Part shown: positions 3 to 45,906 of the stretch, piece after piece
How positions within the stretch are numbered: position 1 is the first letter of the stretch
Layout: every line of letters starts with the position of its first letter
Source: Lysobacter capsici
Lineage (GTDB): Bacteria > Pseudomonadota > Gammaproteobacteria > Xanthomonadales > Xanthomonadaceae
Assembly (NCBI RefSeq): GCF_014779555.2
Contig: NZ_CP094357.1
Location: 1,922,001-1,986,000 of the forward strand
Direction of reading: 5' to 3'
Length of the DNA: 64,000 nt
Position numbers and translations under genes: made by a program
The notes under the pieces: model-generated
The model's input: only the letters and a program-made list of their open reading frames with translations
What the model was told of the DNA's origin: nothing
Database searches by the model: none

Positions 3-2138
3 ATCGTGGTGGTGATCCTGCAGGCCACGCTCGGCCTGATGCACTTCGAGCACAACCTCTACAACTACGCCAACGCACCGGGCGCGCCGTATTCGGACAT
101 GAACGGCTACGGCCAGTTCCTCGGCGCGCGGCTGTGGTTCCAGACCTACTGGGGCCTGCTGCTGCTCGCGCTGATGCTGCTCGCCGCGGCGTTCTGGGTG
201 CGCGGCGTGGCGCCGAGCCTGCGCGAGCGCATCAAGCTGGCGCGCGCGCGCCTGCGCGGCGGTCGCGGCGTCGCCCTGGCGGTCGCGGTGCTGGCCTGGG
301 TCGCGGCCGGCGGCTGGATCTTCTGGAACACCAACGTGCTCAACCGCTACGTGCCGTCGGACGTGGCGATGGACGAGCAGGCGCGTTACGAGAAGCAGTA
401 CCGCAAGTACCACAACCTGCCGCAGCCGCGCATCGTCGCGGTCGAGAACGAGGTCGACCTGCGTCCGGAAACCCTCAGCGTGCGCACCCGCGGCCACTAC
501 GAAATCGTCAACCAGCATGCCGCGCCGATCGCCGAGTTCCATATCGCGGTCGATCCCGACGCGACGATCGAGAAGCTTGAGTTCGGCGGCGCCAAGCTGA
601 TCCATGACGATGCGCGCGTGGGCTATCGCATCTATCGCCTGGACAAGCCGATGCAGCCGGGCGAACACCGCCAGTTGAACTTCGTCCAGTCCTACGCCCA
701 GCGCGGCTTCTCCAACGAGCCGAGCAACACCCAGATCGTCGCGAACGGCAGCTTCTTCAACTCGTCGGTGTTCCCGAGCTTCGGCTACAGCGAAGGCCGC
801 CAGCTCAGCGACCGCAACGAACGCCGCAAGCGCGGCCTGGGCGAAGCGCCGCGCATGCCCAAGCTCGAGGACCAGGCCGCGCGCGCGAATCACTACATCG
901 CCTCCGATGCGGACTGGATCGACTTCAATACCACCGTGTGCACCGCGCCGGACCAGATCGCGCTGTCGCCGGGTTATCTCAAGCGCGAGTTCCGTCGCGA
1001 CGGCCGCCGTTGCTTCGAATATGCGATGGACCGGCCGATGCTGCCGTTCTACTCGTACCTGTCGGCGCGCTGGGAGGTGCGCCGCGCCGAGCACGCCGGC
1101 ATTCCGATCGAGGTGTACTACGATCCCAAGCACGCCTACAACGTCGACCGCATGATCGACGGGGTCAAGAAGTCGCTGGACTACTTCCAGGCGAACTTCA
1201 CCCCGTACCAGCACCGGCAGGTGCGCATCCTCGAGTTCCCAGGCTATTCGCGTTTCGCCCAGAGCTTCGCCAACACCATCCCGTTCTCCGAATCGATCGG
1301 CTTCGTCGCCGACCTGCGCGATCCCGAGGCGGTCGACTACGTGTTCTACGTGACCGCGCACGAAGTCGCGCACCAGTGGTGGGCGCACCAGGTGATCGGC
1401 GCCAACGTGCAGGGTTCGACGATGCTGTCGGAATCGCTGTCGCAGTATTCGGCGCTGATGGTGATGGAGAAGGAATACGGCCGGGCCAAGATGCGCCGCT
1501 TCCTCAAGTACGAACTGGACCGTTACCTGTCCGAGCGCGGCGGCGAGCGGCTGGAGGAATTGCCGCTGTACCGGGTGGAGAACCAGCAGTACATCCATTA
1601 CCGCAAGGGCTCGCTGGTGTTCTATCGCCTGCGCGAGGAACTGGGCGAGGCGACGGTCAATCGCGCGCTCAGGCGCTTCCTGGAAGACAAGGGCTACCAG
1701 AACCCGCCGTACACCACCTCGGCCGAGTTGCTGGAGTACCTGCGCGCGCAAGCCAAGCCCGAGCAGCAGCAACTGATCACCGACCTGTTCGAGAAGATCA
1801 GCTTCTACGACAACCGCGTGGTCGAGGCGAGTTCGAAGAAGCGTCCCGACGGTAAGTACGAAGTCAGCTTGAACCTGCACGCGGCCAAGTTGTACGCCGA
1901 CGGCAAGGGCAAGGAGACCGCCGCGCCGCTGGACGACTGGATCGAGATCGGCGTGTTCGCGCGCGGGCCGTCGGGCAAGGAAGGCGACGAGAAGGTCTTG
2001 TCGCTGGAGCGTCGTCACATCACCAGGAACGATCAGACGGTGACGGTGGTGGTCGACCAGGCGCCGTACGAGGTCGGGTTCGATCCGTACAACAAGTTGA
2101 TCGATCGGGTGCCGGCGGATAATCGCAAGAAGTTGTGA
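3..2138 (+). CDS. ABC-2 permease / M1-family metallopeptidase fusion, C-terminal part (5' partial)
   Basis: The frame is open to the left edge, so the true start lies upstream. The visible part begins with membrane segments (about nt 120-200 and 265-320), then a large soluble domain with the M1 zinc signature HEVAHQWWAH at nt 1359-1388. A downstream SESLSQY segment supplies the third zinc ligand, a Glu in the HEXXH-X18-E arrangement. Proteins of this build carry an ABC-2 type permease N-terminus fused to an aminopeptidase-like domain in the periplasm or cytoplasm; natural substrates are poorly known. The ATP-binding subunit would be expected just upstream, outside the window. A strong hairpin terminator follows. 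The peptidase call is firm; transport function is inferred from the family. Confidence 0.85.
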   Translation: MVVVILQATLGLMHFEHNLYNYANAPGAPYSDMNGYGQFLGARLWFQTYWGLLLLALMLLAAAFWVRGVAPSLRERIKLARARLRGGRGVALAVAVLAWVAAGGWIFWNTNVLNRYVPSDVAMDEQARYEKQYRKYHNLPQPRIVAVENEVDLRPETLSVRTRGHYEIVNQHAAPIAEFHIAVDPDATIEKLEFGGAKLIHDDARVGYRIYRLDKPMQPGEHRQLNFVQSYAQRGFSNEPSNTQIVANGSFFNSSVFPSFGYSEGRQLSDRNERRKRGLGEAPRMPKLEDQAARANHYIASDADWIDFNTTVCTAPDQIALSPGYLKREFRRDGRRCFEYAMDRPMLPFYSYLSARWEVRRAEHAGIPIEVYYDPKHAYNVDRMIDGVKKSLDYFQANFTPYQHRQVRILEFPGYSRFAQSFANTIPFSESIGFVADLRDPEAVDYVFYVTAHEVAHQWWAHQVIGANVQGSTMLSESLSQYSALMVMEKEYGRAKMRRFLKYELDRYLSERGGERLEELPLYRVENQQYIHYRKGSLVFYRLREELGEATVNRALRRFLEDKGYQNPPYTTSAELLEYLRAQAKPEQQQLITDLFEKISFYDNRVVEASSKKRPDGKYEVSLNLHAAKLYADGKGKETAAPLDDWIEIGVFARGPSGKEGDEKVLSLERRHITRNDQTVTVVVDQAPYEVGFDPYNKLIDRVPADNRKKL

Positions 2139-2267
2139 TGCTGTTTATCCGAGGCAACACGTTGTGATCGGGTGTTCTCAATAAGAAGTTGAGATTCTCG
2201 TGCGGCGAACTGCATGCCCCCTTTGCAAAAGGGGGCGGACGCCCAGCGACGGCACGAAGTAGTAAGC

Positions 2268-2303
2268 GATCCCCCGCGCGCGGGGGATTCGCTTTTTTGG
2301 CCT
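2268..2303 (+). terminator. Rho-independent terminator after the M1 peptidase gene
   Basis: A GC-only stem (GCGATCCCCCGCG / CGCGGGGGATTCGC) is followed by six T. It coincides with a member of the repeated AAAGCGAATCCCC element family described at 18.2 and 32.8 kb, so here the repeat element also acts as a terminator. Confidence 0.75.
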
Positions 2304-2387
2304 TTGTCCTTCTTCTCTGCTGGGAGCCCGGCTTTGGCTCAGGGGCTGACGCGGCAGTGTTGAAACCTGCGTCGTCGTTATGTTTGC

Positions 2388-3005
2388 GCGGTCGCGGCTT
2401 GCGCCGCTCCTACAGGTAGGCCATGTAGCTTTGGCTTGTGCCTGAAGTCGAGCAGTTCATCCAGCGCTGCGACGCTTGGAACTCGCGAGAACAACAGAAC
2501 ACCCGAAGGGCGGCGCACATGGATGTGCGCCGTGCGCCACCGAGACAGGATGTCTCGTGTGGCGCATGCCTGCGAATGCACCGCACGCACGGGCCCTTGA
2601 TTCACAAAAAAGCGTTTTTCTTTGGTTACCTTTCTTTTGTCGCTTTTGACAAAAGAAAGTAACTCGGCCGCTTGCGGACGAAAGCTGTTGATCTTGCCTC
2701 TGGCTTCAAAGCTCTAGAGCTTCAAAGCTTCAAAGCTTCGAAGCCTTTAAAGCCTTTAAAGCTGCAAGCAGGATCAAAAGCGTTCCGCCGCTGAAGCGGC
2801 GGGTCACTTTCTTTTGTCAAAAGCAACAAAAGAAAGGTAACCAAAGAAAAATGCTTTTTTGTGAATCAAGTGCCCGCAAGATCGGTGCTGACGCGGGCAT
2901 GCGCCACACGGGACATCCATGTCCCGGTGGCGCACGGCGTGCATCCTGCACGCCGCCCTTCGGGTGTGCGTTTGCTAACGCAAGTCAGTGGCCTCGCAGC
3001 GCTGG
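2388..3005. repeat. Quasi-palindromic repeat block A (upstream of rhlE)
   Basis: Left arm (about 2388-2665): a REP (GGCTTGCGCCGCTCCTACAG), a segment with GCGCACATGGATGTGCGC, then TTTCTTTGGTTACCTTTCTT and ACAAAAGAAAGT. Centre (2666-2785): runs of CTTCAAAGCT/CTCTAGAG. Right arm (2785-3005): the same motifs in reverse orientation (AAGAAAGGTAACCAAAGAAA, GGGACATCCATGTCCC). The block has an inverted copy at 5325-5935. Short reading frames inside it are translations of palindromes and show no protein features. No transposase is present. Confidence 0.85.
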
Positions 3006-3111
3006 AAGTGGACGACGAAATGGGGCGTAAGCCAAAGCTAGGTGCTCTGGAATTATTGAGATCGCGGACCTGCGTCGGGCTTTGAGTCCGGGCGTTCTGT
3101 ACGAAGCACCC

Positions 3112-3232
3112 CTGTAGGAGCTGCGCAAGCTGCGACCGGCATGTGACCGATCGCGCCGCGGGTTGCGCCAGGTTGCGCGGTGGGTGCGGGTTCGCGGTCG
3201 CAGCTTGCGCAGCTCCTACAGGAGGGCAATCC
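3112..3232. repeat. Inverted pair of REP elements (TGTAGGAGCTGCGCAAGCTG)
   Basis: CCTGTAGGAGCTGCGCAAGCTGCGACC at about 3112-3138 is repeated in inverted orientation at about 3204-3230. Each unit is itself a small palindrome, so the pair can fold into a long hairpin, as BIME/REPIN elements do. The rest of 3006-3775 holds only the promoter region of rhlE; I see no gene there. Confidence 0.7.
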
Positions 3233-3775
3233 GGCATACGTCGACCGGGGAGAAGGGGGGGGGCTGGCAACGACGAAGCCAGAAAACAGCGGCTTGGCCA
3301 TGCAATTTCGGGTGTTTGTTTCCCCGATAAGCAACCGCAACAAGCAGTTCCAGCCGCGCAGACCCACCCGCCACCCAAGTCCCGATCCAGGCAATGGACT
3401 CCAGCCCGGCCAGGGTCCAGCCCCAACCCGGCGACCACATGACCGCCCGCTAACGCCTCCCACCCGGCAAAACTGGCGGTTTGGTCCGGTTTCGCGTACA
3501 GTTCGCGCCGTTCAGCGCACGGCTGCCTCCCCGCAAGGGTACGTTTCCCAGGTTGCCTGTCGCCCCGCACCGAGTTCTCGGATTCGCCGGCGCGACTTTT
3601 TATCCCGCACGTCTTTCGTAGCGCAGACACGGCCCGGAGCTTCCGGCGTCGTCAAATTTAGATACTCGCAGCGCGGTTCAAGGGAACGCTGGGGTCATCA
3701 CGCGATCGTCTCGTTCGCGCGTCCGTTCCGTCGGGCGCGTCGCGTGCGCGCATCGCGAACCACTGGAGTTCCAAC

Positions 3776-5119
3776 ATGACGTTTGAATCGCTTGGGCTTG
3801 CGCCCGCGCTGCTGCGCGCGCTGTCCGAACAGAACTACATCAACCCCACCCCGATCCAGTCCGAAGCGATCCCGCTCGCGCTGGCCGGGCACGACCTGCT
3901 CGGCGGCGCCCAGACCGGCACCGGCAAGACCGCCGCGTTCGGTCTGCCGCTGCTGCACCGTCTGGCCACCACGCCGGGCAACAGCCAGCGCAAGCCGCGC
4001 GTGCTGATCCTGGCCCCGACCCGCGAGCTCGCGCTGCAAGTCAGCGACAGCCTGCGCGCTTACGCCAAGTACCTGCGCATCAACGTGCACGCCATCTTCG
4101 GCGGCGCCGGCATGGGCCCGCAGCTCGACGCGCTGCGTCGCGGCGTCGATGTGCTGGTCGCCACCCCGGGCCGTCTGATCGATCACCTCGAGCGCGGCAG
4201 CGCCAAGCTCGACGCGGTCGAAGTGCTGGTCATGGACGAAGCCGACCGCATGCTCGACATGGGCTTCCTGCCCGCGATCAAGCGCATCCTCGGCCGCCTG
4301 CCGCCGCAGCGTCAGACCCTGTTGTTCTCGGCGACGTTCGAGGCGCAGATCAAGCAGCTGGCACTGGAGTTCATGCGCAACCCGCAGCAGGTGCAGATCG
4401 CCTCCAACAGCGTCGTCGCCGATGCGATCACCCATCGCGTGCATCCGGTCGACGGCGGCCGCAAGCGCGATCTGCTGATCCAGATCCTCGCGTCGCGCCC
4501 GAACGATCAGGTGATCGTGTTCGGCCGCACCAAGCACGGCTGCAACCGTTTGTCCGAGCAGCTCGAGGAAGCCGGTCTGAAGTCGGTCGCGATCCACGGC
4601 AACAAGAGCCAGGCGCAGCGTCAGAAAGCCCTGCGCGATTTCAAGGCGAACAAGGCCCGCGTGCTGGTCGCCACCGACGTCGCCGCGCGCGGTCTCGACA
4701 TTCCGAGCCTGCCGCTAGTGATCAACTTCGATCTGCCGATGGTCGCCGAGGACTACGTCCACCGTATCGGCCGCACCGGCCGCAATGGTCTGACCGGTGA
4801 GGCGCTGTCGCTGGTGTCGCCGGACGAGGGCGGTCTGCTGCGTCAGATCCAGCGCATCCTCAAGGACGACATCGAGATGGTGACGGTCGCCGGCTTCGAG
4901 CCGTCGCGTCCGATCCGCATGGGTTCCGACGCTCCGGGCGCGCGTCGTCCCGGCGCTCCGGGCGGCAACCGCGCCGGCGCCAACGCGCCGCGCAAGCCGG
5001 CGCATCGTCCGCACGGCAAGCCGCCGGCGCGTCATGCGCATGCCGGTCCGAAGCAGCACCGCGGTGGCGGTGCCGGCGCGGGTCAGCCGGGTCAGCGGCG
5101 CGATCGCAACGCGGGTTGA
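3776..5119 (+). CDS. rhlE: DEAD-box ATP-dependent RNA helicase, RhlE type
   Basis: The 447-residue protein unwinds or remodels RNA in the cytoplasm; RhlE-type helicases act in ribosome assembly, RNA decay and cold growth. All core motifs are visible in order: Q motif (PTPIQSEAIP), Walker A AQTGTGKT, PTREL, TPGR, DEAD in VMDEADRMLDMGF, SAT, and motif VI HRIGRTGR. The tail after about residue 380 is Arg/Gly/Pro/His-rich (for example RKPAHRPHGKPPARHAHA), typical of the RNA-binding extension of RhlE. The ATG at 3776 begins MTFESLGLAPALL, the usual N-terminus. It stands alone as a unit with its own terminator and is bracketed by inverted repeat blocks A and B. RhlE is preferred over RhlB or SrmB because of length and tail. 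Confidence 0.92.
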   Translation: MTFESLGLAPALLRALSEQNYINPTPIQSEAIPLALAGHDLLGGAQTGTGKTAAFGLPLLHRLATTPGNSQRKPRVLILAPTRELALQVSDSLRAYAKYLRINVHAIFGGAGMGPQLDALRRGVDVLVATPGRLIDHLERGSAKLDAVEVLVMDEADRMLDMGFLPAIKRILGRLPPQRQTLLFSATFEAQIKQLALEFMRNPQQVQIASNSVVADAITHRVHPVDGGRKRDLLIQILASRPNDQVIVFGRTKHGCNRLSEQLEEAGLKSVAIHGNKSQAQRQKALRDFKANKARVLVATDVAARGLDIPSLPLVINFDLPMVAEDYVHRIGRTGRNGLTGEALSLVSPDEGGLLRQIQRILKDDIEMVTVAGFEPSRPIRMGSDAPGARRPGAPGGNRAGANAPRKPAHRPHGKPPARHAHAGPKQHRGGGAGAGQPGQRRDRNAG

Positions 5120-5324: not shown

Positions 5325-5935
5325 CGCGGTCGCGGCTTGCGCCGCTCCTACAGGTAGGCCATGCCGCTTTCGCTTGAAGCCGCGCAGTTCATCCAGCGCT
5401 GCGAGGCTTGGGACTCGCGAGAACAAATGCACACCCGAAGGGCGACGCGCATGGATGCGCGTCGCGCGCCACCGGGACATGGATGTCCCGTGTGGCGCGT
5501 GCCCACGTCGGCACCGAGCTTGCGGGCCCTTGATTTACAAAAAAGCATTTTTCTTTGGTTACCTTTCTTTTGTTGCTTTAGACAAAAGAAAGTGACCCGC
5601 CGCTTCAGCGGCGGAACGCTTTTGATCTTGCTTGCAGTTTTAAAGGCTTCAAAGCTTTGAAGCTCTAGAGCTTTTGAAGCCAAAGGCAAGATCAACAGCT
5701 TTCGTCCGCAAGCGGCCGAGTTACTTTCTTTTGTCAAAAGCGACAAAAGAAAGGTAACCAAAGAAAAACGCTTTTCTTTGAATCAAAGGCCCGCGCGTGC
5801 GGAGCATTCGCGGGCACGCGCCACACGGGACATCCTGTCCCGGTGGCGCGCGGCGCACATCCATGTGCGCCGCCCTTCGGGTGTGCCTTTGCCAACGCGA
5901 GTTACAAGCTTCGCAGCGCTGGTGATGTACGACGG
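5325..5935. repeat. Quasi-palindromic repeat block B (downstream of rhlE), inverted copy of block A
   Basis: It contains the same modules as block A. Its right arm (about 5695-5795) is a near-exact reverse complement of 2587-2690, including CTTTCGTCCGCAAGCGGCCG. Its left arm (about 5522-5615) is the reverse complement of 2785-2880, including CCGCCGCTTCAGCGGCGG. The CTCTAGAG centre is also inverted. The two blocks therefore bracket rhlE as roughly 600-bp inverted repeats. Confidence 0.85.
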
Positions 5936-7774: not shown

Positions 7775-9474
7775 AAGGCCAGCAGCAACAAGGCCGCGCC
7801 GGCGGCGCCGGCGCCGTAGCACACGCGGCAGGGCAGGCGGATCTGCTGCGCCGGGCCGTACGGGGCGGCGTAGCCGTCGTCTTCGAGCGTCTGCACGCGC
7901 ACGTACCAGGTGCCGCCGCCGGGACGCTTGAGTTCCACCTGCGGTACGTCGACTTCTTGTTCGAGCAGCAGCTTGGCGAAGTCGGGCTTGCGCGCGATCT
8001 GCACGCGGTAACGCTGGCCGGGTTCGCCCTTCTGCCAGCGCAGGGTCAGCAAGCCCTTGGCCGCCTGCGGCGATTCCAATCCCGGATCGACCGGCGCGTC
8101 GCTGACGGTGAACGGCAAGACGTTGCCGAAGCGGCCGCTGCGGCCGGCGGCGTCGCGCGAGGCGACGCGCCAGAAGTAGTTGCCGGGCGGCAGCGCGTCG
8201 TCGGGGCGATAGCGCTGGCCCTTGAGTTCGGTGTCGACCAGCGGTTGTTCGAAGCGATCGTCGCGCGCCAGTTGCAGGCGGGTGCGTTCGGCGTCGGCGG
8301 CGTGCGCCCATTCGAACCGCGGCCGCGGCACGCTGACGGTCTGGCCGTCGAGCGGGCTGATCGTCAGCGGCGGCAAGGGTTGATCGTTGACGGTGAACAC
8401 CCGTTCGCTGTCGCGGCCGCTCAGGCCGTTGGCGGCGATCGCGCGCACCAGCAGGCGCTGGCGTCCGGCCGGCAGGTCGTCGATGCGCACCTGCGGGCTG
8501 TCGACGCGGCTTTCGTACAACAACACTTCCGGCGCATCGTCGCGGACCACTTCGACCCGATAGCCGATCGCGCCGGGCACCGGCGTCCACGCCACGCTGG
8601 CAGGCAGCGGTTCCAGCCGGGTGCCATCGTCGAGCAGGCTCGGCGCGGGCAGCAGGGCGATCGCGGCGGTGGGCGCGGTGCCGGCCGCGGCGACCGTGCC
8701 GAAGCCGGGCAACACCAGCACCTGACTGCGTTGCGAACCGACCTGGACCTTGCCTTCGAGCACTTCGGTCGCATCGGCCGCGCCGTGGTCGCCGGCGCTG
8801 ACGCGGAAATGGGTGCCGCGCACGCTGGAGGTCGCCGACGGGGTTTCGATGATGTAGCGCGAGGCCGGGCCCTTGGCCGGGATCACCCGGTTGCTGGTGC
8901 GGCCGCGCTGCAGGCGCATGCGCGTGTCGACCATGCCGGTGCTGCCGTAGCTGCTGAGTTCGTCGAACACGATGCGGCTGTTGTCCTGCACCATCAGGCG
9001 CGAACCGTCGGCGAATTCGAGGGTCGCGCTGGCGCCCGGTCCGGTTTCCAGCCGGCTGCCGATGCCGATGCGCATGCCTTCGCTGACCAAGCGGGCCGGC
9101 GCGTTGTCGGAGGCCAGCACGTTGACCGCGCCGCGCACCGCGACGACCTTGGCCTTCGCCGGTTCGATCCGCAGCCAGCCGATCGGGAACGCCATGCGCG
9201 TGCCCGGCGGCAGGTGATAGGGGTTGGCGATGCGGTTGTGTTCCTGCAGGCGGCGCCAGTTGATGCCGGCCTTGAGGTGCTTGGCGCCCAGGTCCCACAA
9301 GGTGTCGCCGGGACGGACCCGATAGCTCCAGTCCTGGGCCTGGGCCAGGCCGCAGCCGGCCAGCAGCAGCGCCGACACGGCGAGGCAACGACCCAGGCGC
9401 CGGCGAAGGGCGGCGGCCGCGCGCCGGCCGGCGTGCGTCGCATCAAGGGGCGAGGGCGCAGTAATCGAAGGCAT
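7771..9474 (-). CDS. LysM-FecR domain exported protein
   Basis: A 567-residue envelope protein. A basic N-terminus precedes a hydrophobic stretch ending LLLAGC (Cys41), which fits a lipoprotein signal or a plain Sec signal. Next come a LysM peptidoglycan-binding repeat (about 50-98, YRVRPGDTLWDL), a FecR domain (about 108-230, with GSRLETGPGA and SVRGTHFRVS), then fibronectin-like repeats and a hydrophobic C-terminus containing CRVCYG. FecR domains are periplasmic signal or carbohydrate-contact modules. The start at 9474 (MPSITAPSP) is preferred over upstream extensions because it places the signal near the N-terminus. It overlaps the CHASE2 cyclase by 4 nt and probably feeds it a periplasmic signal (inference). 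Confidence 0.88.
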   Translation of the reverse strand: MPSITAPSPLDATHAGRRAAAALRRRLGRCLAVSALLLAGCGLAQAQDWSYRVRPGDTLWDLGAKHLKAGINWRRLQEHNRIANPYHLPPGTRMAFPIGWLRIEPAKAKVVAVRGAVNVLASDNAPARLVSEGMRIGIGSRLETGPGASATLEFADGSRLMVQDNSRIVFDELSSYGSTGMVDTRMRLQRGRTSNRVIPAKGPASRYIIETPSATSSVRGTHFRVSAGDHGAADATEVLEGKVQVGSQRSQVLVLPGFGTVAAAGTAPTAAIALLPAPSLLDDGTRLEPLPASVAWTPVPGAIGYRVEVVRDDAPEVLLYESRVDSPQVRIDDLPAGRQRLLVRAIAANGLSGRDSERVFTVNDQPLPPLTISPLDGQTVSVPRPRFEWAHAADAERTRLQLARDDRFEQPLVDTELKGQRYRPDDALPPGNYFWRVASRDAAGRSGRFGNVLPFTVSDAPVDPGLESPQAAKGLLTLRWQKGEPGQRYRVQIARKPDFAKLLLEQEVDVPQVELKRPGGGTWYVRVQTLEDDGYAAPYGPAQQIRLPCRVCYGAGAAGAALLLLAL

Positions 9475-38263: not shown

Positions 38264-38339
38264 GGGCTGTTAGCTCAGTTGGTAGAGCAGTTGACTCTTA
38301 ATCAATAGGTCCAAGGTTCGAATCCTTGACAGCCCACCA
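38264..38339 (+). tRNA. tRNA-Lys (CTT), integration target
   Basis: 76 nt. Acceptor GGGCTGT/ACAGCCC, anticodon loop CTCTTAA, encoded CCA. Its 3' part from 38289 is duplicated at 42967-43022, so the intact gene carries the left end of a genomic island. Confidence 0.95.
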
Positions 38340-38344
38340 AATAA
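38289..38344 (+). repeat. attL: 56-bp core in tRNA-Lys 3' end
   Basis: A 56-bp perfect direct repeat of 42967-43022, from the anticodon stem (AGTTGACTCTTAATCAATAG) through CCA to CAAATAA. This is the usual footprint of tyrosine-recombinase integration in a tRNA 3' end. Confidence 0.93.
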
Positions 38345-38380
38345 ACAAGGACTTAGCGGAAACGCTAGGTCCTTTTTTAT
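38345..38380 (+). terminator. Terminator downstream of tRNA-Lys
   Basis: AGGACTTAGCG-GAAA-CGCTAGGTCCT followed by TTTTT. A diverged relative follows the right att copy (43025-43062). Confidence 0.85.
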
Positions 38381-38399
38381 TGCCTCCTGACAATTCTCC

Positions 38400-39143
38400 T
38401 GACAATTAGGGCGTTTTTTGGCGGCTCGCGCCAGTTTGTCGATCGGATGGACTGGTGCAGGAACCAGCTTGATTTCGTCGTCGTAGATTGCGAACGACTG
38501 CTCCGTGGCGTGGCCCGACGCGTCCTTTTTCTCGGCGCGGGTGCCCTCGGTGTTGCTGATGCCGCGGCGCTTCAATCCATGCATCGCGAACGTGTCTTCC
38601 CTCTGCGATAACGCCGGCGACGACCGCCGCGGCCACTAGCCGCTTCCATGCCGAGTGCAGACTGGATCTCGCCAAGGGCGCGCCGTCTTCGCCGTACAGT
38701 AGCGGTCGATTCTCCGCACGCATCGGCGTCACGCCCTTCTTGGCGCTGATCAGCGCACTGCGTCGCGCCTGCAGCTCGGCAACAGCCGCGAGCAGGCGAG
38801 GGTTCCAGGCGGTGATGTTGGTCAAGCTGCCTTTCCGGCGCCTGTTCTGCAGCCCCTCCTTGAGGATGTCGGCGTCATTGAGATCGCAGACCTCAACGCC
38901 TCGCAGGCGGCAACTGAACGCGATTTCGGCCACCGCGGCGAGGTAAGGCGGTTGGCTGCCCTTGGAATGGGGCTTGAGCTGGCCGCGCTCGCGCGCGAAA
39001 GCGACAAGCGAGACGTACGCCTGGTCTTTCGGGAACTGCCGCTTCTTCCGCTCTTTGGTTTGCTTCACGCCGCGGCCGGGATTGTTTTGGCAGTGACCGT
39101 GGCGTATGCCCCAGGCGCACAAGCGCCGCAGGTACCGCAGCAC
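38400..39143 (-). pseudogene. Tyrosine recombinase (phage integrase) remnant, frameshifted and N-truncated
   Basis: Minus-strand frames encode the core and catalytic part of an integrase: LRRLCAWGIRHGHCQNNPGRG (residues split across the core), IAFSCRLRGVEV, then, in another frame, FAMHGLKRRGISNTEGTRA and SGHATEQSFAIYDDE with the tyrosine. The two frames join if one base is removed near 38596-38597 (AEG|DTFAMHG). This indicates a single-base insertion. The N-terminal arm-binding domain is missing; homology stops at about 39143, where a plus-strand phage remnant begins. It lies right beside attL and reads toward it, as expected of the enzyme that inserted the island. It is probably inactive. 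Confidence 0.85.
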
Positions 39144-39145
39144 GT

Positions 39146-39444
39146 GGTTCGCCTTGGACGAATATCAGCGCAACAACGCGCTCAAGAACTATGAGCAGGC
39201 ATTGCTCGATCGCCGCGGCTACCTGATGGACAGCCTGGCCATGGCGATCCGCACCGGTGCCGACGTCGAGGCGGTGCAGGCGAAGATCCGCGCGTTCACT
39301 CAGACGAACCCCGAGATCGCCATCACCGCCAAATCGATCGAGCGGAGCCTTGGCGCCTGCGCGCGGTACAGCTCGCGCGCTGAGGGCGGCGTGGTGCTCA
39401 ACGCCCGCCTAGCCGCGCGGGTACGCCAAGCCGTCGGCGACTAG
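39146..39444 (+). pseudogene. C-terminal fragment of a large phage-type protein
   Basis: About 98 residues (WFALDEYQRNNALKNYEQAL, YLMDSLAMAIRTGADVEAV, SRAEGGVVLNARLA). The pattern resembles the extreme C-termini of very large phage virion-associated or polyvalent proteins, from memory and not verified. No start codon, signal or body of the gene precedes it; the sequence to its left belongs to the integrase remnant. It is therefore best read as a deletion scar between two prophage genes. Its stop shares CTAG with the convergent gene. Confidence 0.5.
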
Positions 39445-40184
39445 TCGGGCCGAGCGGCCTGCCCTAAGGCTGCTTTGATTTGTCGGACTGCAGGGCCCAA
39501 GAGAGCTGTGCCGGACTCGTCACGACGGCCGTCATCGATGGCGTTAAGCGTTTGCGCCATCGTGCTAAGGCCGTAGTCGATGAGCTCCAGGTCTTCGGCC
39601 TCAAATTCCCAGAAAAGCTGGTCCAGGCTTTGCGGCTTACCCTTGGCGTACATTTCGGGCAGTTTCTCGATAGCCACGGTCGCAATCTGATGGAGTTCGA
39701 TCAGTCCCGCAAGGCGATCCGGAGGCAAATTCACGAGCACGTCTTGAACGCTGGCCCAGTGGGCCACGGCGTTTTTCGCCATGACAATGCTGATTTTTAC
39801 AGCATCGGGCAGGGTCTTCTGCTGAAACAGCGCGAGTTCATAGGGCAGAAGTTTCGGCGCAGGCTCTTCGATCGGAAGCTTGTCGGCGATCTGATCCATC
39901 GTCGCCTCAGTTCCGGCGCCTGTTGCCAATTGTCTGACGAATACGATGTTTTCGTAGAGCGGTTGGAAGATGGGAATGTAGATTCTCTCGAGCTGAGCTT
40001 GTTTCACGCGCATCTGGTAAATCCACAGCCCGAAGGCTCCGATGACTGCTAGCACGGTAGACGATAGTGCCGCGACTACCGCCGCCGTGTTGGTCTCGAA
40101 TGGGCGGAGCCAGGGCTGGTTGAGCAGCAGCATGAAAAGGCAGCCGGCGGCGGCGCCCGCGAGCGCTGTGAGGACGTATTTCAA
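39441..40184 (-). CDS. Island membrane protein, 247 aa (TTG start)
   Basis: The start is a TTG with AAAGGAG 6 nt upstream, a strong site. Two N-terminal membrane helices (LTALAGAAAGCLFMLLL and about 35-58, ending GLWIYQMRVK) are followed by a cytoplasmic, mostly helical domain of about 185 residues (LERIYIPIFQPLYENIVFVR; ELIDYGLSTMAQTLNAIDD). No family recognised. The two-part build (N-terminal anchor, helical tail) resembles the three paralogs downstream, but the AHxxW...REWK signature is absent. Lower GC than core genes. Stop codon overlaps the convergent phage fragment. Confidence 0.75.
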   Translation of the reverse strand: MKYVLTALAGAAAGCLFMLLLNQPWLRPFETNTAAVVAALSSTVLAVIGAFGLWIYQMRVKQAQLERIYIPIFQPLYENIVFVRQLATGAGTEATMDQIADKLPIEEPAPKLLPYELALFQQKTLPDAVKISIVMAKNAVAHWASVQDVLVNLPPDRLAGLIELHQIATVAIEKLPEMYAKGKPQSLDQLFWEFEAEDLELIDYGLSTMAQTLNAIDDGRRDESGTALLGPAVRQIKAALGQAARPD

Positions 40185-40201: not shown

Positions 40202-40465
40202 TTATTCGTCGTTGAGGCCTTTGGCCACGGCGTGGTTGTAGTAGGGACGCTCGCGGTCTTCCAGGATGTCGTAGAACCTGGCTAAGTCGTGCGGCGCCGG
40301 CTGCCGCCAGATCTGCGCCACTTCGGTGCCTTTCATCTTGAGCTGGTAGATGACCGAGTTCGCCGGCGGATCGAAGGGGCCGCGGCCGTTCGGGTTACGG
40401 TATGGCGCCCACCGGTCCCAGCGGAATCGCTTCGACGGTGGGGGGATGTGGACGGGCTCGGGCAT
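40202..40465 (-). CDS. Island hypothetical protein, 87 aa
   Basis: A soluble, Pro/Arg-rich start (MPEPVHIPPPSKRFRWDRW), then VIYQLKMKGTEVAQIWR and DLARFYDILEDRERPYY. No signal peptide or membrane helix. It lies 17 bp upstream of the 247-residue membrane protein gene, same strand, so the two probably form an operon. The ATG at 40465 has no strong ribosome site. No family recognised. Confidence 0.6.
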   Translation of the reverse strand: MPEPVHIPPPSKRFRWDRWAPYRNPNGRGPFDPPANSVIYQLKMKGTEVAQIWRQPAPHDLARFYDILEDRERPYYNHAVAKGLNDE

Positions 40466-40546
40466 GCCGAAATACTAGCGCCGGGCGTCTCAATTAGTAA
40501 GAATACTCACAAAGCCGACGTCCGCCGACGGCACAAGGGGCAGGGT

Positions 40547-41206
40547 ATGGATACCGATGAATTCCTCAAACTGCTGGGGCAGCCATTTGGACTGGGGGCC
40601 GGGGCAGTCGTCGCCGTTTATGTAGTTCAATGGGTTCTAAGGCGGCTCGGCGCCGGCGGCGACGCGTATGCGGCGAAGAAGGGGCAAAACCTTGCCACCA
40701 AAGAAGACCTAGCGGATGCAGTCAAGCAGCTCAAAGAATTCGAGGAGACAAGAGCCGCGGTCGCTCACGAGGATTGGGTTGCGCGGGAGTGGAAAGCAGT
40801 TCGGGCACGACATCTAGAAGCGTTCGAAGGTGGGTTACAGGAGAGCTACGACTACGCTCAGGACCTGATGCAAGCTGCCATTTTTACCGCCAAGGAGGGG
40901 CTTGCCCGGAACGACGGCGGCGTCGCAATACGCTTGCGAACTCTGCAAAAGCTTTACTACCCAGAGCTTGCGGAAACATTAACGAAGTTCCAAGGCATTG
41001 CCGAAAGACTTCGAATTTTAGGCGCTCAGTACGAGTTCTTGAGGCGTCAGGAGCCACCGCCGCTTGATCGCATCGAGAAGGTTCTGTCGACCATAGAAAT
41101 TGGGGATGCCGACCTTCGAGTAGCGCTTGAAGAGTGCTCCAGCGCTCTCGCTGAGGTGGCAAAGATCGTCTTCAACGTAACGCGCGGGGACGCCAGGCAG
41201 CGATGA
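40547..41206 (+). CDS. Island membrane-anchored paralog 1 (AHxxW/REWK family)
   Basis: 219 residues. Membrane helix at about 14-33 (FGLGAGAVVAVYVVQWVLRR), basic cytoplasmic stretch with KKGQNLATKEDL (a motif I recall in many uncharacterised one-helix proteins), coiled coil, signature AHEDWVAREWKAVRARHLE at residues 73-91, then LYYPEL at 136-141 and a helical C-terminus. AAGGGG precedes the ATG. First of three tandem paralogs. Divergent from the 87-residue gene. Function unknown; lower GC and island location point to horizontal transfer. Confidence 0.8.
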   Translation: MDTDEFLKLLGQPFGLGAGAVVAVYVVQWVLRRLGAGGDAYAAKKGQNLATKEDLADAVKQLKEFEETRAAVAHEDWVAREWKAVRARHLEAFEGGLQESYDYAQDLMQAAIFTAKEGLARNDGGVAIRLRTLQKLYYPELAETLTKFQGIAERLRILGAQYEFLRRQEPPPLDRIEKVLSTIEIGDADLRVALEECSSALAEVAKIVFNVTRGDARQR

Positions 41207-41243
41207 CACCCCAGCCCGCTGGCCCGGGGTGTCATCAAGGTGG

Positions 41244-41264
41244 CATCGGCGGGGTGTGTAAGTG
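41244..41264 (+). promoter_or_regulatory. Repeated upstream box, copy 1 (CATCGG-N4-GTGTGTAAGTG)
   Basis: CATCGG, 4 bp, GTGTGTAAGTG, matching 17 fixed positions at identical spacing to copy 2 at 42156-42176. It lies 146 bp before paralog 2. It could be a regulatory site or a relic of the duplication. Confidence 0.45.
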
Positions 41265-41410
41265 ATTGATCCGTTTGACGCGCGCTGTCGTGCTGTGTCG
41301 CGCTATGTCCCTGAAAACGCTCTACTTACGAGACCTTGACATGGTTGAGCGTAAGGCCTTGACTGACATTTAGGCGTGGCGGCGCAAGCCCGAGACAGAA
41401 AGGAGAAGGT

Positions 41411-42118
41411 GTGAACAAGGAAATGGTTGCCGAGATCGCCAAGTTACAGGCTGGGCAGTGGACGACCATCGACACTGCTCTGGTTCTGACGATGGTCCTG
41501 ACGGCCGTGGTCTGTACCGTCGCCGCTTTTGCCGCGCCTTACCTTGCGAAAAGGGGGGAGATCCAGGCGACAAAGGACAGGTTCGAGGAAATCTTAGGTC
41601 AGCTGCGCAAGAACACAGAAGCCACCGAGCAAATTCGAACGGAGATCGCACATCAAGACTGGACGGCGCGGGAATGGAAGGCAACGCGCGGTAAGAAGCT
41701 TGAGGAACTGCTTTTGTTGGTCAGCGCGATGGACCGCTGGCACGATGAGCTTTGGAGCCTAACCATCCGGCGCGACTATGGGCAGCCGCCTGGTGTCGAC
41801 CCCTCTGATCATGTGATCGCATTGCAGCTTATGTACTTCCCCGAGCTCCGAGATGTTGTACCACCCTGTGTCGGATTGTTTGCGAAGGTGAGGGCCGAGA
41901 TTTTCGAGTTTCGGGCTCGTAACACAAGGATTTCGCAGAGCGACTGGGAAGCTGGCATTGACCGGGTAATGCTCCGAATGGCCAAACACTTTGACGAGGC
42001 CAGCATTGCGAGGCGCACACTCCAAGAAAGAGTGGTTGACGTGATGGTGGCGACCTTTGGCGATCAAGCGAAACCACCATCGCCTGCCGCAGCGATTTCC
42101 GCAGACGATGCGCGATAA
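41411..42118 (+). CDS. Island membrane-anchored paralog 2 (AHxxW/REWK family)
   Basis: 235 residues from GTG 41411 with AGGAG 6 nt upstream. Membrane helix 22-45 (ALVLTMVLTAVVCTVAAFAA), YLAKRGEIQATKDRFEEI coiled coil, signature AHQDWTAREWKATRGKKLE at 80-98, MYFPEL at 141-146, and a helical C-terminus with an Ala/Pro tail. It aligns residue for residue in position with paralog 3. Function unknown. Confidence 0.82.
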   Translation: MNKEMVAEIAKLQAGQWTTIDTALVLTMVLTAVVCTVAAFAAPYLAKRGEIQATKDRFEEILGQLRKNTEATEQIRTEIAHQDWTAREWKATRGKKLEELLLLVSAMDRWHDELWSLTIRRDYGQPPGVDPSDHVIALQLMYFPELRDVVPPCVGLFAKVRAEIFEFRARNTRISQSDWEAGIDRVMLRMAKHFDEASIARRTLQERVVDVMVATFGDQAKPPSPAAAISADDAR

Positions 42119-42155
42119 TGTCTGCGCCATCGGGGCGCGTGTATGGTCAACGCAT

Positions 42156-42176
42156 CATCGGAATAGTGTGTAAGTG
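42156..42176 (+). promoter_or_regulatory. Repeated upstream box, copy 2 (CATCGG-N4-GTGTGTAAGTG)
   Basis: Same as copy 1; here only 29 bp before the start of paralog 3. Confidence 0.45.
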
Positions 42177-42205
42177 CCAGATTCAACTGATGATGGGGGG
42201 AGGAT

Positions 42206-42880
42206 ATGGATAAGGCGCTGGCGGAGGAAATCGCCCAGATCGTGCTGAGAGGGCTTTGGGCAAGCAAGGGCGAGTTCTTCCTCGCAATGACTATCTGGGC
42301 GCTCGTCAGTGGCTTATTCGCTTTCTTCGGCGCGTACTTGGCCAAGCTGGCGGAGGGGCGGGTCGCGGACAGGCGGTTCGAGACCCTCACCGCCCAGCTC
42401 GCAGTGACGACCACGACGGTCCAACGGATTCAGACTGAAGTGGCCCACGGTGAGTGGGCGCAGCGCGAATGGAAGTCGATTCGGCAGCGGAAGCTGGAGG
42501 AATTGCTCGGCGAAGCCGGGGCCGTCGAGGCCTTCTTGGATCATTGTCGTAACCAGCTGCCGCAAGCTCAGCCCCCGACACCCCCGCCCTTGCCGCTGGA
42601 CAAGTTCGAGGTGCTGGTACACCTGTACTTCCCCGAGTTGCTCGATACTGGGCGCGCTTTCGCCACGTCGGCTAGGGCTGCGGTAATCACCCTGCATGAG
42701 TTCTGCATAGCCAACGGGGAGGCTGGCGGCCAAGATCCAATCGGCCTCTTTAACCAACACAACATTGCGATCATGGCGGCGCGAAGATCGGTTATAGATC
42801 GGCGCGCTGCTCTGGATGTGGCCGCCGTCCAGGTCGTACGCACCATCTTTGCTGGGCCGCCCGATGCTCCTGAAAATTAA
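42206..42880 (+). CDS. Island membrane-anchored paralog 3 (AHxxW/REWK family)
   Basis: 224 residues; GGGGAGGAT ribosome site. Membrane helix 24-46 (FFLAMTIWALVSGLFAFFGA), YLAKLAEGRVADRRFETLTA, signature AHGEWAQREWKSIRQRKLE at 80-98, Pro-rich loop (QPPTPPPLP), LYFPEL at 140-145, and a C-terminal helical region. Third gene of the tandem set and last in the island; attR follows after 86 bp. Function unknown. Confidence 0.82.
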   Translation: MDKALAEEIAQIVLRGLWASKGEFFLAMTIWALVSGLFAFFGAYLAKLAEGRVADRRFETLTAQLAVTTTTVQRIQTEVAHGEWAQREWKSIRQRKLEELLGEAGAVEAFLDHCRNQLPQAQPPTPPPLPLDKFEVLVHLYFPELLDTGRAFATSARAAVITLHEFCIANGEAGGQDPIGLFNQHNIAIMAARRSVIDRRAALDVAAVQVVRTIFAGPPDAPEN

Positions 42881-42966
42881 CTTGACTGATCCTTGCGCGC
42901 AGGCTTGCGGTGAGCGGTGCTCCTGAAAAATAACAGGGCTAACCTATTGATTTTCAAGTTGCAGCA

Positions 42967-43022
42967 AGTTGACTCTTAATCAATAGGTCCAAGGTTCGAA
43001 TCCTTGACAGCCCACCAAATAA
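42967..43022 (+). repeat. attR: 56-bp duplicate of tRNA-Lys 3' end
   Basis: Identical to 38289-38344. Only the 3' part of a tRNA is present (no D-arm or 5' acceptor strand), so it is not a functional tRNA. It marks the right boundary of the island. Confidence 0.93.
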
Positions 43023-43024
43023 GA

Positions 43025-43062
43025 AAAGGGACTTGGCCGCAACGCCAAGTCCCTTTTTCTTT
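43025..43062 (+). terminator. Terminator beside attR (probably the ancestral tRNA-Lys terminator)
   Basis: AAAGGGACTTGGC-CGCAAC-GCCAAGTCCCTTTTT; a diverged relative of the hairpin after tRNA-Lys at 38345. Confidence 0.85.
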
Positions 43063-44470: not shown

Positions 44471-44701
44471 TCATGGGGTGTAGCAGGGGCCGCCGCCGAT
44501 CGGGCACGACTTGACGAACACCCATTTGTAATTGGTGCAGGTGTAGTAGTTACGCCGTCCGTTCTGCACGACGGTCGTCGTGGCGCCGTTGGGACTGCAC
44601 GACTGTCCCGCCACCTGCGCGCTTGCGGTACCGCCAGCGCCGATCATCAGCCCCGCCGCGAACACCGCGGCCGCCACCTTCTTCATCATCGTCGAATTCA
44701 T
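44471..44701 (-). CDS. Small exported peptide, paralog A of an inverted pair
   Basis: 76 residues; signal peptide (MMKKVAAAVFAAGLMIGAGG, cleavage near ASA-Q) and a mature chain of about 48 residues with four Cys: QSCSPNGATTTVVQNGRRNY, YTCTNYKWVFVKSCPIGGGP, C. Start 44701 has GGAG 6 nt upstream. About 70 per cent identical by eye to the product of 45679-45906 on the other strand. Probably two disulfides. Family unknown. Confidence 0.75.
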   Translation of the reverse strand: MNSTMMKKVAAAVFAAGLMIGAGGTASAQVAGQSCSPNGATTTVVQNGRRNYYTCTNYKWVFVKSCPIGGGPCYTP

Positions 44702-45678
44702 CACTTGCTCCATGTGCATAACAATGTCGCTGGATTGGTTCGCGGACATTCGCGGGACATGCGACATGCAACCTGGATCCGCGTATGCCGGCACGGGCAG
44801 CCAGCGCTTCTGTCCGTTGTCGGGTATCGCGCTTCGCGCATCGGATGCAGTCGGCGAAGCTCGAGCCGGGACACGTGACGAATCAGGGATAACCTATTTT
44901 TCATTCGCTGTCAGACGTTCGCGTGCACGGCGCAAAACGAAAGCGTGATCTTCATCGGCACTTCGCGTCCGTGGACATGTCGATCGCGTATCCGCTCGCG
45001 ATTGCTTGCGCGCCGATTGCGCTCTTCGCATTTCGCGGCTGAATGTTCGATCGATAGACGCATGTGTCATCGCATCGGCGCAGTCATGCGGCGGCTGATC
45101 GTCGAAATGGAAAGACGCTTGGCTTACTGCGGTCGCTTTTTTCTTTGTTCGCTGCGGGCAAGTGGCGATGCGTATTGCTGCATTTCTGACGAATCGGAAT
45201 CGGCCGCAGAAGACCGGTTTTGTTCGCAGCGATGAGGCAGTGATGATCGATCCGAAGGTCGAGCGGACTCGGTCAGAACCCATCGATCATTCGATCCGCC
45301 GCCATCGCCAACGCATCCACGATAGCCGGAGCAGCCGATGGCCTCGTCGAATGTGTGGGTGTCGCAAGCGTGATGGTCCGCGAATATCCATTCGATGGAG
45401 CTACGGATAAAAGTGTCGATGAGCATCACGCTTTGGACGTGATCGACAGACGCCAACCGCGCACAACGGCCGAAAAATCGGCTATCCCTGTTCGTCACGT
45501 GTCCAGGTCTGAACTCCGCCGATTCATTCGTCGCCCCCACGACAGCACCGGTACCCGACTACGGACAGAATCGCTGGCTGTCCGTGCTGCCATTCGCGGT
45601 CGCGAGTTTCATTCGCATGCGGCCGCGAATGCCCGCGAATCGTTCCAGCGACATCATGTTATGCAAAGGGAGCAAGGA
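44702..45678. other. 977-bp spacer between the inverted paralogs
   Basis: The ends of this spacer are themselves inverted repeats. AGCGCTTCTGTCCGTTGTCG (about 44803-44826) matches the inverse of GACTACGGACAGAATCGCT (about 45557-45575), and both are embedded in similar upstream regions. This shows that the duplicated unit includes the promoter region. The middle (about 44890-45500) has lower GC and no gene I can support. Confidence 0.65.
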
Positions 45679-45906
45679 ATGAATCGGACTATGATGAAGA
45701 AGATGGCGGCCGTGGTGTTCGCGGCGGGTCTGGCGATCGGCGCCGGCGGCACCGCGAGCGCGCAGGTGGGCGGCCAGTACTGCAATCCCAACGGCGCCAC
45801 CACGACCATCGTGCAGGGCAGCTGGAGGTACTACTACACCTGCAGCAGCCACAAGTGGGTGTTCGTCAAGGCATGCCCGATCGGCGGCGGGCACTGCATC
45901 TTCTGA
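45679..45906 (+). CDS. Small exported peptide, paralog B of an inverted pair
   Basis: 75 residues; signal peptide (MMKKMAAVVFAAGLAIGAGG, cleavage near ASA-Q); mature QYCNPNGATTTIVQGSWRYY and YTCSSHKWVFVKACPIGGGH with four Cys. Ribosome site AAGGGAGCAAGGA. It is followed by a terminator similar to that of paralog A. Confidence 0.75.
   Translation: MNRTMMKKMAAVVFAAGLAIGAGGTASAQVGGQYCNPNGATTTIVQGSWRYYYTCSSHKWVFVKACPIGGGHCIF

Follow-up and report, generated by a model that had tools for sequence, protein, structure and literature searches.

Tandem one-helix membrane protein genes in a probable P2-type prophage remnant at a tRNA-Lys gene of Lysobacter capsici

Three paralogous genes in a tRNA-Lys island

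A stretch of 64,000 nucleotides of Lysobacter capsici (contig NZ_CP094357.1, positions 1,922,001 to 1,986,000; hereafter the window) contains an island at a tRNA-Lys gene, in which three consecutive genes, A, B and C, encode the membrane proteins P0001, P0002 and P0003 (Table 1). Each protein carries a signature with the residues REWK, by which the family is referred to here: AHEDWVAREWKAVRARHLE at residues 73–91 of P0001, AHQDWTAREWKATRGKKLE at residues 80–98 of P0002 and AHGEWAQREWKSIRQRKLE at residues 80–98 of P0003. A second motif comes after it at about residues 136–146 and reads LYYPEL, MYFPEL and LYFPEL, respectively. All three possess a single strong hydrophobic stretch close to the N-terminus, with lysine and arginine in excess in the 15 residues after this stretch compared with those before it, a pattern shared by all 13 family members tested. 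Purine-rich stretches that resemble ribosome sites were seen by eye 5' of each start. The BLASTP E values, from one comparison apiece, were 6e-14 (A/B), 2e-20 (B/C) and 9e-8 (A/C), so that at the sequence level the proteins are homologous beyond chance. An original prediction, made from the letters of the window, had described three paralogous plus-strand genes of these lengths with both motifs, one N-terminal helix and a basic juxtamembrane part, ribosome sites of their own, no catalytic motifs and a place on a tRNA-Lys island, and all of this is borne out; no catalytic domain was recognized in the family. To that description are added here the broken P2-type integrase, the PLxRFG remnant, the tRNA-Val attachment (att) vestige at 41333–41345, and P0005 and P0006.

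Searches of P0001–P0003 against Pfam, PHROGs and NCBIfam gave weak sub-threshold matches alone (best E 0.019). Together with the PADLOC result given below, this leaves the three proteins with no fitting entry in the Pfam, NCBIfam, PHROGs and PADLOC libraries searched. Foldseek comparison of P0002 with viral models returned nothing at E <= 0.001. A sequence search of the Protein Data Bank (query A2) listed an alcohol dehydrogenase (0.015) and a nucleoporin (0.56), weak matches that were judged to be due to chance. Among the literature matches listed for P2-type hotspots, Lysobacter prophages, att accretion and attP exchange, no description of this arrangement and these proteins was recognized, which does not prove that they are unpublished.

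The insertion at tRNA-Lys measures 4,678 bp, with the tRNA-Lys 3' end repeated perfectly over 56 bp at its two borders. In a genome of the same genus (G003, L042), the site is empty, and the left flank (96.1% identity) passes into the right flank (86.4%) within 4 bases. The broken integrase matched the phrog_1 integrase at E 1.5e-10 and, by tblastn, the Smp131 integrase with 45.6% identity over residues 1–169 only (1e-41); its continuation lies in a different frame at 38270–38584. The PLxRFG remnant, to which the integrase is joined, matched NF032893 at 2.1e-11, which is under the curated cut-off, and positions 4544–4637 of the 4647 of phrog_10089 at 4.7e-6. No P2-type structural or replication gene was found among P0001–P0007, the island proteins searched. 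With its body deleted, the island is a prophage remnant rather than a prophage, and parts of both prophage ends, the integrase and the PLxRFG gene, appear to survive. The paired hairpins behind attL and attR may mean that the element brings its own tRNA terminator. At the leader of gene A, a consensus scan found no sigma-70 promoter.

Table 1. Features of the tRNA-Lys island in the window
Feature	Position	Strand	Basis or remark
tRNA-Lys (CTT)	38264..38339	+	ARAGORN; integration target, 3' part forms attL
attL, 56-bp perfect direct repeat	38289..38344	+	Repeat search; empty site in L042
Terminator-like hairpin behind tRNA	38347..38374	+	Consensus scan (10 sites vs 5.2 expected from shuffles)
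Broken tyrosine integrase, Smp131-related (P2-type phage)	38406..39143	-	N-terminal part missing, frame broken
Remnant, 3' end of giant phage gene (PLxRFG / DarB-like C-terminus)	39106..39444	+	NF032893, phrog_10089
P0005, 247 residues, N-terminal hydrophobic stretches	39441..40184	-	Homologue near REWK gene in L014
P0006, 87 residues, unknown protein	40202..40465	-	33-residue C-terminal match in L004 too
Conserved leader 5' of gene A	40476..40517	+	92.9% identity in Root690; candidate promoter/operator
Gene A (P0001)	40547..41206	+	219-residue one-helix membrane protein
A-type tail	41207..41345	+	Inverted repeat, GTGTAAGTG, arm-like sequence, then vestigial tRNA-Val att core
Vestigial tRNA-Val att core ACCTTGACATGGT	41333-41345	+	In the A–B gap; L004 counterpart has a 52-bp perfect repeat
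Gene B (P0002)	41411..42118	+	235-residue one-helix membrane protein, GTG start
B–C gap	42119..42205	+	About 51 bp similar to the start of an A-type tail; no core
Gene C (P0003)	42206..42880	+	224-residue one-helix membrane protein
Lys-type tail, 86 bp	42881..42966	+	Contains CTCCTGAAAA repeats that may be integrase arm sites
attR, 56-bp perfect direct repeat	42967..43022	+	Repeat search
Terminator-like hairpin behind attR, similar to that behind tRNA	43024-43057		Same consensus scan

Att cores behind the genes and divergence of the cargo

Integrase core sites were compared for seven family genes of three Lysobacter islands, those of the window, of Lysobacter yr284 (L004; gene order C-A) and of Root690 (L005; gene order A-B). 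A core site lies directly downstream of six of the seven genes, and its type follows the type of the gene. All three type A copies are followed, via a common tail, by a tRNA-Val core, and homology in the three-way alignment of the A tails ends at this core. In L004 the core forms the right end of a tRNA-Val island with a 52-bp perfect repeat; vestiges of it remain at 41333–41345 of the window and at 8775–8788 of L005, and none of 300 shuffles was as good. Of the four B and C copies, three have a tRNA-Lys core behind them, which by the coordinates starts 86 bp past the stop codon in each. Next to window C and L005 B is a tRNA-Lys right end, and a decayed tRNA-Lys core lies between C and A of L004. 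The gap between window B and C resembled the start of the three A tails over about 51 bp, to a degree reached by 2, 1 and 15 of 500 shuffles, whereas 499 and 213 of 500 shuffles were as good as its match to the two Lys-type tails, i.e., there was no resemblance. The core and gap comparisons used mononucleotide shuffles, a weak control, and the core-by-gap comparisons numbered 16 in total. A tRNA-Val-core match at the right end of L005 was discarded as trivial, since the tRNAs have the T-arm in common.

Given the link between gene type and att type and the att vestiges between the genes, the array is best read as stacked prophage right ends of two integration specificities. Each paralogue would once have been the last gene before attP in its own prophage, and the tandem order would have arisen because the right ends of related tRNA-Val- and tRNA-Lys-specific prophages were stacked, not because the genes form an operon. 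Stacking may have occurred through secondary-site integration or through exchange of the attP-int module during phage recombination.

Genes A and C are under purifying selection, beside a broken integrase. The ratio of nonsynonymous to synonymous substitution rates (dN/dS) was approximately 0.24 for gene A between the window and L004, at a dS of 1.6 that is near saturation, 0.30 between A of L004 and the A fragment of L005, and, for gene C, 0.29 in the C-terminal half, downstream of REWK. At the DNA level, the window and Root690 were 87% identical in the dead integrase, 88% in the PLxRFG remnant and 97% and 91% in the host flanks. The cargo was 75% identical over 211 bp for A and 83% for B, which was alignable over only 83 bp. 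By these alignments the cargo genes are more divergent than the adjacent dead DNA, and replacement of cargo by recombination appears to fit better than slow decay. Moreover, C of L004 was 74% identical to B of L005 and 26% to window C before REWK, and 61% identical to window C and 33% to L005 B after it. Judged from these identities, C of L004 is a mosaic with a module swap at REWK.

Relatives of the family and neighboring defense genes

At the level of the genus, a profile of the three sequences found the family in 3 of 20 genomes, and at that of the order in 4 of 397. Wider profiles matched 2 of 398 genomes drawn from the phylum, 7 of 369 from the class and 6 of 375 from the taxonomic family; these draws overlap and every one includes the genome of the window. 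Besides the own genome, five of the six class-level matches covered the C-terminal half only and one covered an N-terminal stretch. Profile comparison links the full-length family to shorter relatives that share its C-terminal half (98.4%, E 7.4e-15). A scan of genome contigs gave four loci. Of four scans of viral contigs, one found two relatives (L026 and L027) and three found none, and a plasmid search with P0002 gave no match. Apart from the two tandem pairs above, a single copy was present in the stretch read at L006, L007, L014, L015, L017, L026 and L027. The membrane protein P0005 has homologues in 5 of the 375 family-level genomes, the own genome counted, with a REWK gene nearby in two of the five (G000 and G204). 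A homologue lies at 5643–6356 of L014, a locus at tRNA-Glu which also holds, at 1421–4769, a pair of radical-SAM-like genes and one with His-Ser repeats; together we take these to be a His-Xaa-Ser maturation system.

Neighbors were scanned with PADLOC models for selected proteins, four each at the window, L005, L006 and L014, two each at L015, L017 and L026, and one each at L004, L007 and L027. Defense-model neighbors were present at 3 of these 10 full-length loci, with PD-Lambda-5 at L005 and PD-T7-4 at L026 and L027. L026 and L027 are phage contigs, and in both the homologue comes third in a row of three genes, after a PD-T7-4 gene (2.5e-75 and 6.3e-75, respectively) and a gene for 69 residues, and the gene ends overlap by one base (in L027 if the start is the ATG at 7905). 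According to PMC9519451, PD-T7-4 came from a functional screen. In Root690, PD-Lambda-5 A and B (4.1e-61 and 3.3e-115) lie in the att segment of the REWK genes, and the gene directly left of the preceding att copy encodes PDC-S39 (4.2e-205).

The tRNA-Lys 3' end is present in two or three att-like copies in several Lysobacter genomes. Directly left of one related copy in G008, with 12 mismatches in 56, are a retron II-A reverse transcriptase (2.5e-103) and its NDT partner (3.5e-76; L063:2576-4452, minus strand). Of eight non-tRNA att copies, two adjoin a gene for a defense-model protein (the PDC-S39 and retron ones) and one adjoins a REWK gene; the other five adjoin an HNH-like gene (sub-threshold, 4.6e-4), a small unknown gene (two copies) or no clear gene (two copies). 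Library scans covered part of the att-adjoining genes, those at L057, L058 and L061 excluded.

The Lysobacter tRNA-Lys 3' end was also seen to be a recurrent integration site at L062 (G010), L056–L059, L061 and L063. The tRNA-Lys island at L059 encodes on the plus strand (3566–4057) a 163-residue fragment that corresponds to the start of the PDC-S06 ATPase model (2.4e-28), and its integrase, by eye, looked intact and of the same kind. At L017, a gene beside the REWK relative (2240–2791, minus strand) encodes a protein with a hydrophobic N-terminus that by eye resembles Cap15-type proteins of the cyclic-oligonucleotide-based anti-phage signaling system (CBASS), with no model match above the cut-off. 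Outside the island, the window holds two genes for small secreted-looking paralogues (44471–44794, minus strand, and 45355–45906, plus strand) with, by eye, a signal-peptide-like start, pairs of Cys and the motif NGATTTxVQ..YYTC..KWVFVK.CPIGG; a similar one is found in Root690 (L005:12515-12922).

A row at L070:354-1866 comprises a ThsB-like TIR gene (2.4e-66), a PDC-M50A membrane protein gene (3.7e-28) and a short REWK relative (1387–1866). This relative weakly matches the PADLOC model 1TM Effector (PDLC00665; 1.4e-5).

Origin, possible function and comparison with known systems

Our results indicate that the island is very probably a decayed Smp131-like (P2-type) prophage at tRNA-Lys, in which the three paralogues are stacked attP-proximal cargo genes. 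As for function, it is tentatively proposed that each gene alone encodes a prophage-borne anti-phage or superinfection membrane protein, a role to which the support is circumstantial and which we regard as possible rather than probable. Origin and function combined, i.e., stacked cargo genes for solitary anti-phage membrane proteins, give the best overall explanation, which as a whole falls a little short of an even chance. Each protein would consist of a single helix with the N-terminus out and the C-terminus in, a coiled-coil stalk that includes the REWK region and a cytosolic four-helix bundle with the YFPEL motif. The bundle may sense a cue of infection, and oligomers might then disturb the inner membrane or block the entry of phage DNA.

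Several results weigh against parts of this explanation. With regard to defense, P0001–P0003 had zero matches to PADLOC defense models at E <= 1, 1TM Effector was matched by only 1 of 20 wider family members, and four other PADLOC families were reached weakly by one member each (best 0.0048, 20 members). No credible defense-model neighbor was found among the genes scanned at 7 of the 10 full-length loci, and these counts have no background rate. Scattered core-gene contexts, which would speak against a defense role, were encountered in part: several relatives, mostly short ones (L021, L022 and L023), adjoin genes that we take to be core genes. The recognition or defense role suggested in the original prediction gains some support from the defense-model genes at three loci, found among selected neighbors. 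With regard to origin, searches of the annotated phage collection with P0001, P0002 and the homologue of L026 were negative, no complete phage with a REWK gene adjoining attP was found, and the genes of L026 and L027 adjoin genes read as recombination genes, with no identified attP there. The gap between B and C lacks an att core, so that this stacking step rests on the 51-bp resemblance. Synonymous divergence was estimable in three of six gene pairs and saturated in the others, both B-gene pairs included, and selection on gene B is thus not estimable. Gene A of Root690 (L005:8001-8519 onward) is frameshifted in a run of C, for which sequencing error, decay and phase variation are all possible causes; with this copy broken, not every copy is kept. 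The part of window C before REWK was closest to window B (32%, vs 27% to L005 B) and the part of window B after it to window C (23%, vs 21% to L004 C), hence local duplication or conversion may contribute. Finally, the AlphaFold2 models of P0002 and P0003 had mean confidences (pLDDT) of 79 and 81, but they were built from 10-sequence alignments with residues 1–50, the low-confidence membrane part, at about 51–67, and the four-helix resemblance they suggest is to a common arrangement.

Other explanations, whose probabilities overlap in part, were also considered. The genes may be prophage morons without a defense role, which serve lysogen fitness, envelope stress signaling or antagonism, with the bundle as a chemoreceptor-like sensor of small molecules. 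This is unlikely, though it survives best among the alternatives: no signaling output domain was recognized, and the hypervariability together with the known defense genes near some loci would be more typical of genes in phage–host conflict. Somewhat more doubtful is the extension, taken as a whole, that REWK genes travel with arm sites and half an attP, recombine at the crossover and are shuffled at the stalk. Through a single integrase-mediated crossover, a temperate phage would then change its integration specificity and gain a cargo gene at once, the chromosome would retain alternating att half-sites like growth rings, each preceded by one gene for an anti-phage membrane protein, and the shuffling of cytosolic halves at the REWK stalk might change recognition. 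Selfish functions of the element, such as excision, maintenance or exclusion of related P2-type phages, overlap partly with the preferred explanation and would suit the fixed place by an att core and the tie between gene type and att type; the purifying selection on A and C despite the broken integrase and lost phage body makes them a poor candidate, although exclusion of related phages alone is compatible with all results here.

The original prediction had seen in the diversified copies a multi-subunit or recognition system; the multi-subunit reading is here taken as a hetero-oligomeric membrane complex of diversified subunits. Consecutive genes on the same strand, the stalk and signature at matching positions, and the tandem pairs in two further Lysobacter islands are compatible with such a complex. 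However, an att vestige separates A from B and an A-tail-like stretch separates B from C, the tails behind A and C differ in att type, the sets vary (A-B-C, C-A, A-B and single copies in the stretch read), and the parts after REWK are only 15–23% identical among A, B and C. A three-part machine is thus improbable and is replaced by a layered record of prophage cargo. Local tandem duplication followed by divergence within the decaying island, to which the tandem layout and the above closeness of the B and C halves, slightly over that to their closest cross-island partners, would point, is very improbable, since in whole-protein tblastn A, B and C each scored higher to a copy of another island than to one of their own and an A-type tail with a tRNA-Val core sits inside a tRNA-Lys island.

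Under the preferred explanation of stacked prophage cargo, the tie of gene type to att type and the exact spacing of the Lys-type tails illustrate how prophage cargo genes accumulate and outlive their phage. Should the proteins prove to be anti-phage, the libraries searched would lack their family, one half of each protein would be a swappable recognition part, and more could be sought directly inside attR of Lysobacter P2-type prophages. With the genes arranged singly, their function can be tested directly.

Among known systems, the four-helix ligand-binding domains of the chemoreceptors Tar and PcaY_PP differ from the REWK proteins in that the predicted REWK bundle would be cytosolic by the charge pattern, a second strong membrane helix and a recognized signaling domain are lacking, and identity is approximately 5–16%. 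Similar to the REWK proteins, 1TM Effector proteins (PDLC00665), presumably a CBASS effector model, have one helix, and the short relative at L070 matches; different from it, 19 of 20 members, including P0001–P0003, do not, and no model of a cyclase (CD-NTase) was matched among P0001–P0007 (Pfam, NCBIfam and PADLOC) or the neighbors scanned. In L026 and L027, the only places where it was seen, PD-T7-4 (DUF4145) is the first of the three genes in the row that ends with the REWK homologue, but it is a different protein: the REWK protein of L026 has no DUF4145 match, and none of P0001–P0007 matched PD-T7-4 (PADLOC).

The island is most similar in its integrase and site to the Smp131-like P2-type prophages of xanthomonads. 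PMC3931495 describes att sites at tRNA 3' ends, including tRNA-Lys, at which Xanthomonas prophages related to Smp131 sit, and extra genes across attP from int in Smp131. Different from these prophages, the island of the window has its body deleted and retains a PLxRFG gene end, and the Smp131 stretch (L028) contained no open reading frame of at least 80 residues matching the REWK profile at E <= 0.01. Similar to the defense hotspots of P2 and P4 (Rousset 2022, PMC9122126; Vassallo 2022, PMC9519451), variable cargo occupies a fixed place in a P2-type element. According to these two reports, the cargo of such prophages and satellites is often defense genes, some for transmembrane proteins; in E. 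coli P2 the spots are at fun and in the interval from the replication endonuclease gene to the portal gene, and in Vibrio one lies between cI and the integrase. Different from those hotspots, the spot described here lies directly inside attR and holds stacked vestiges of two att types.

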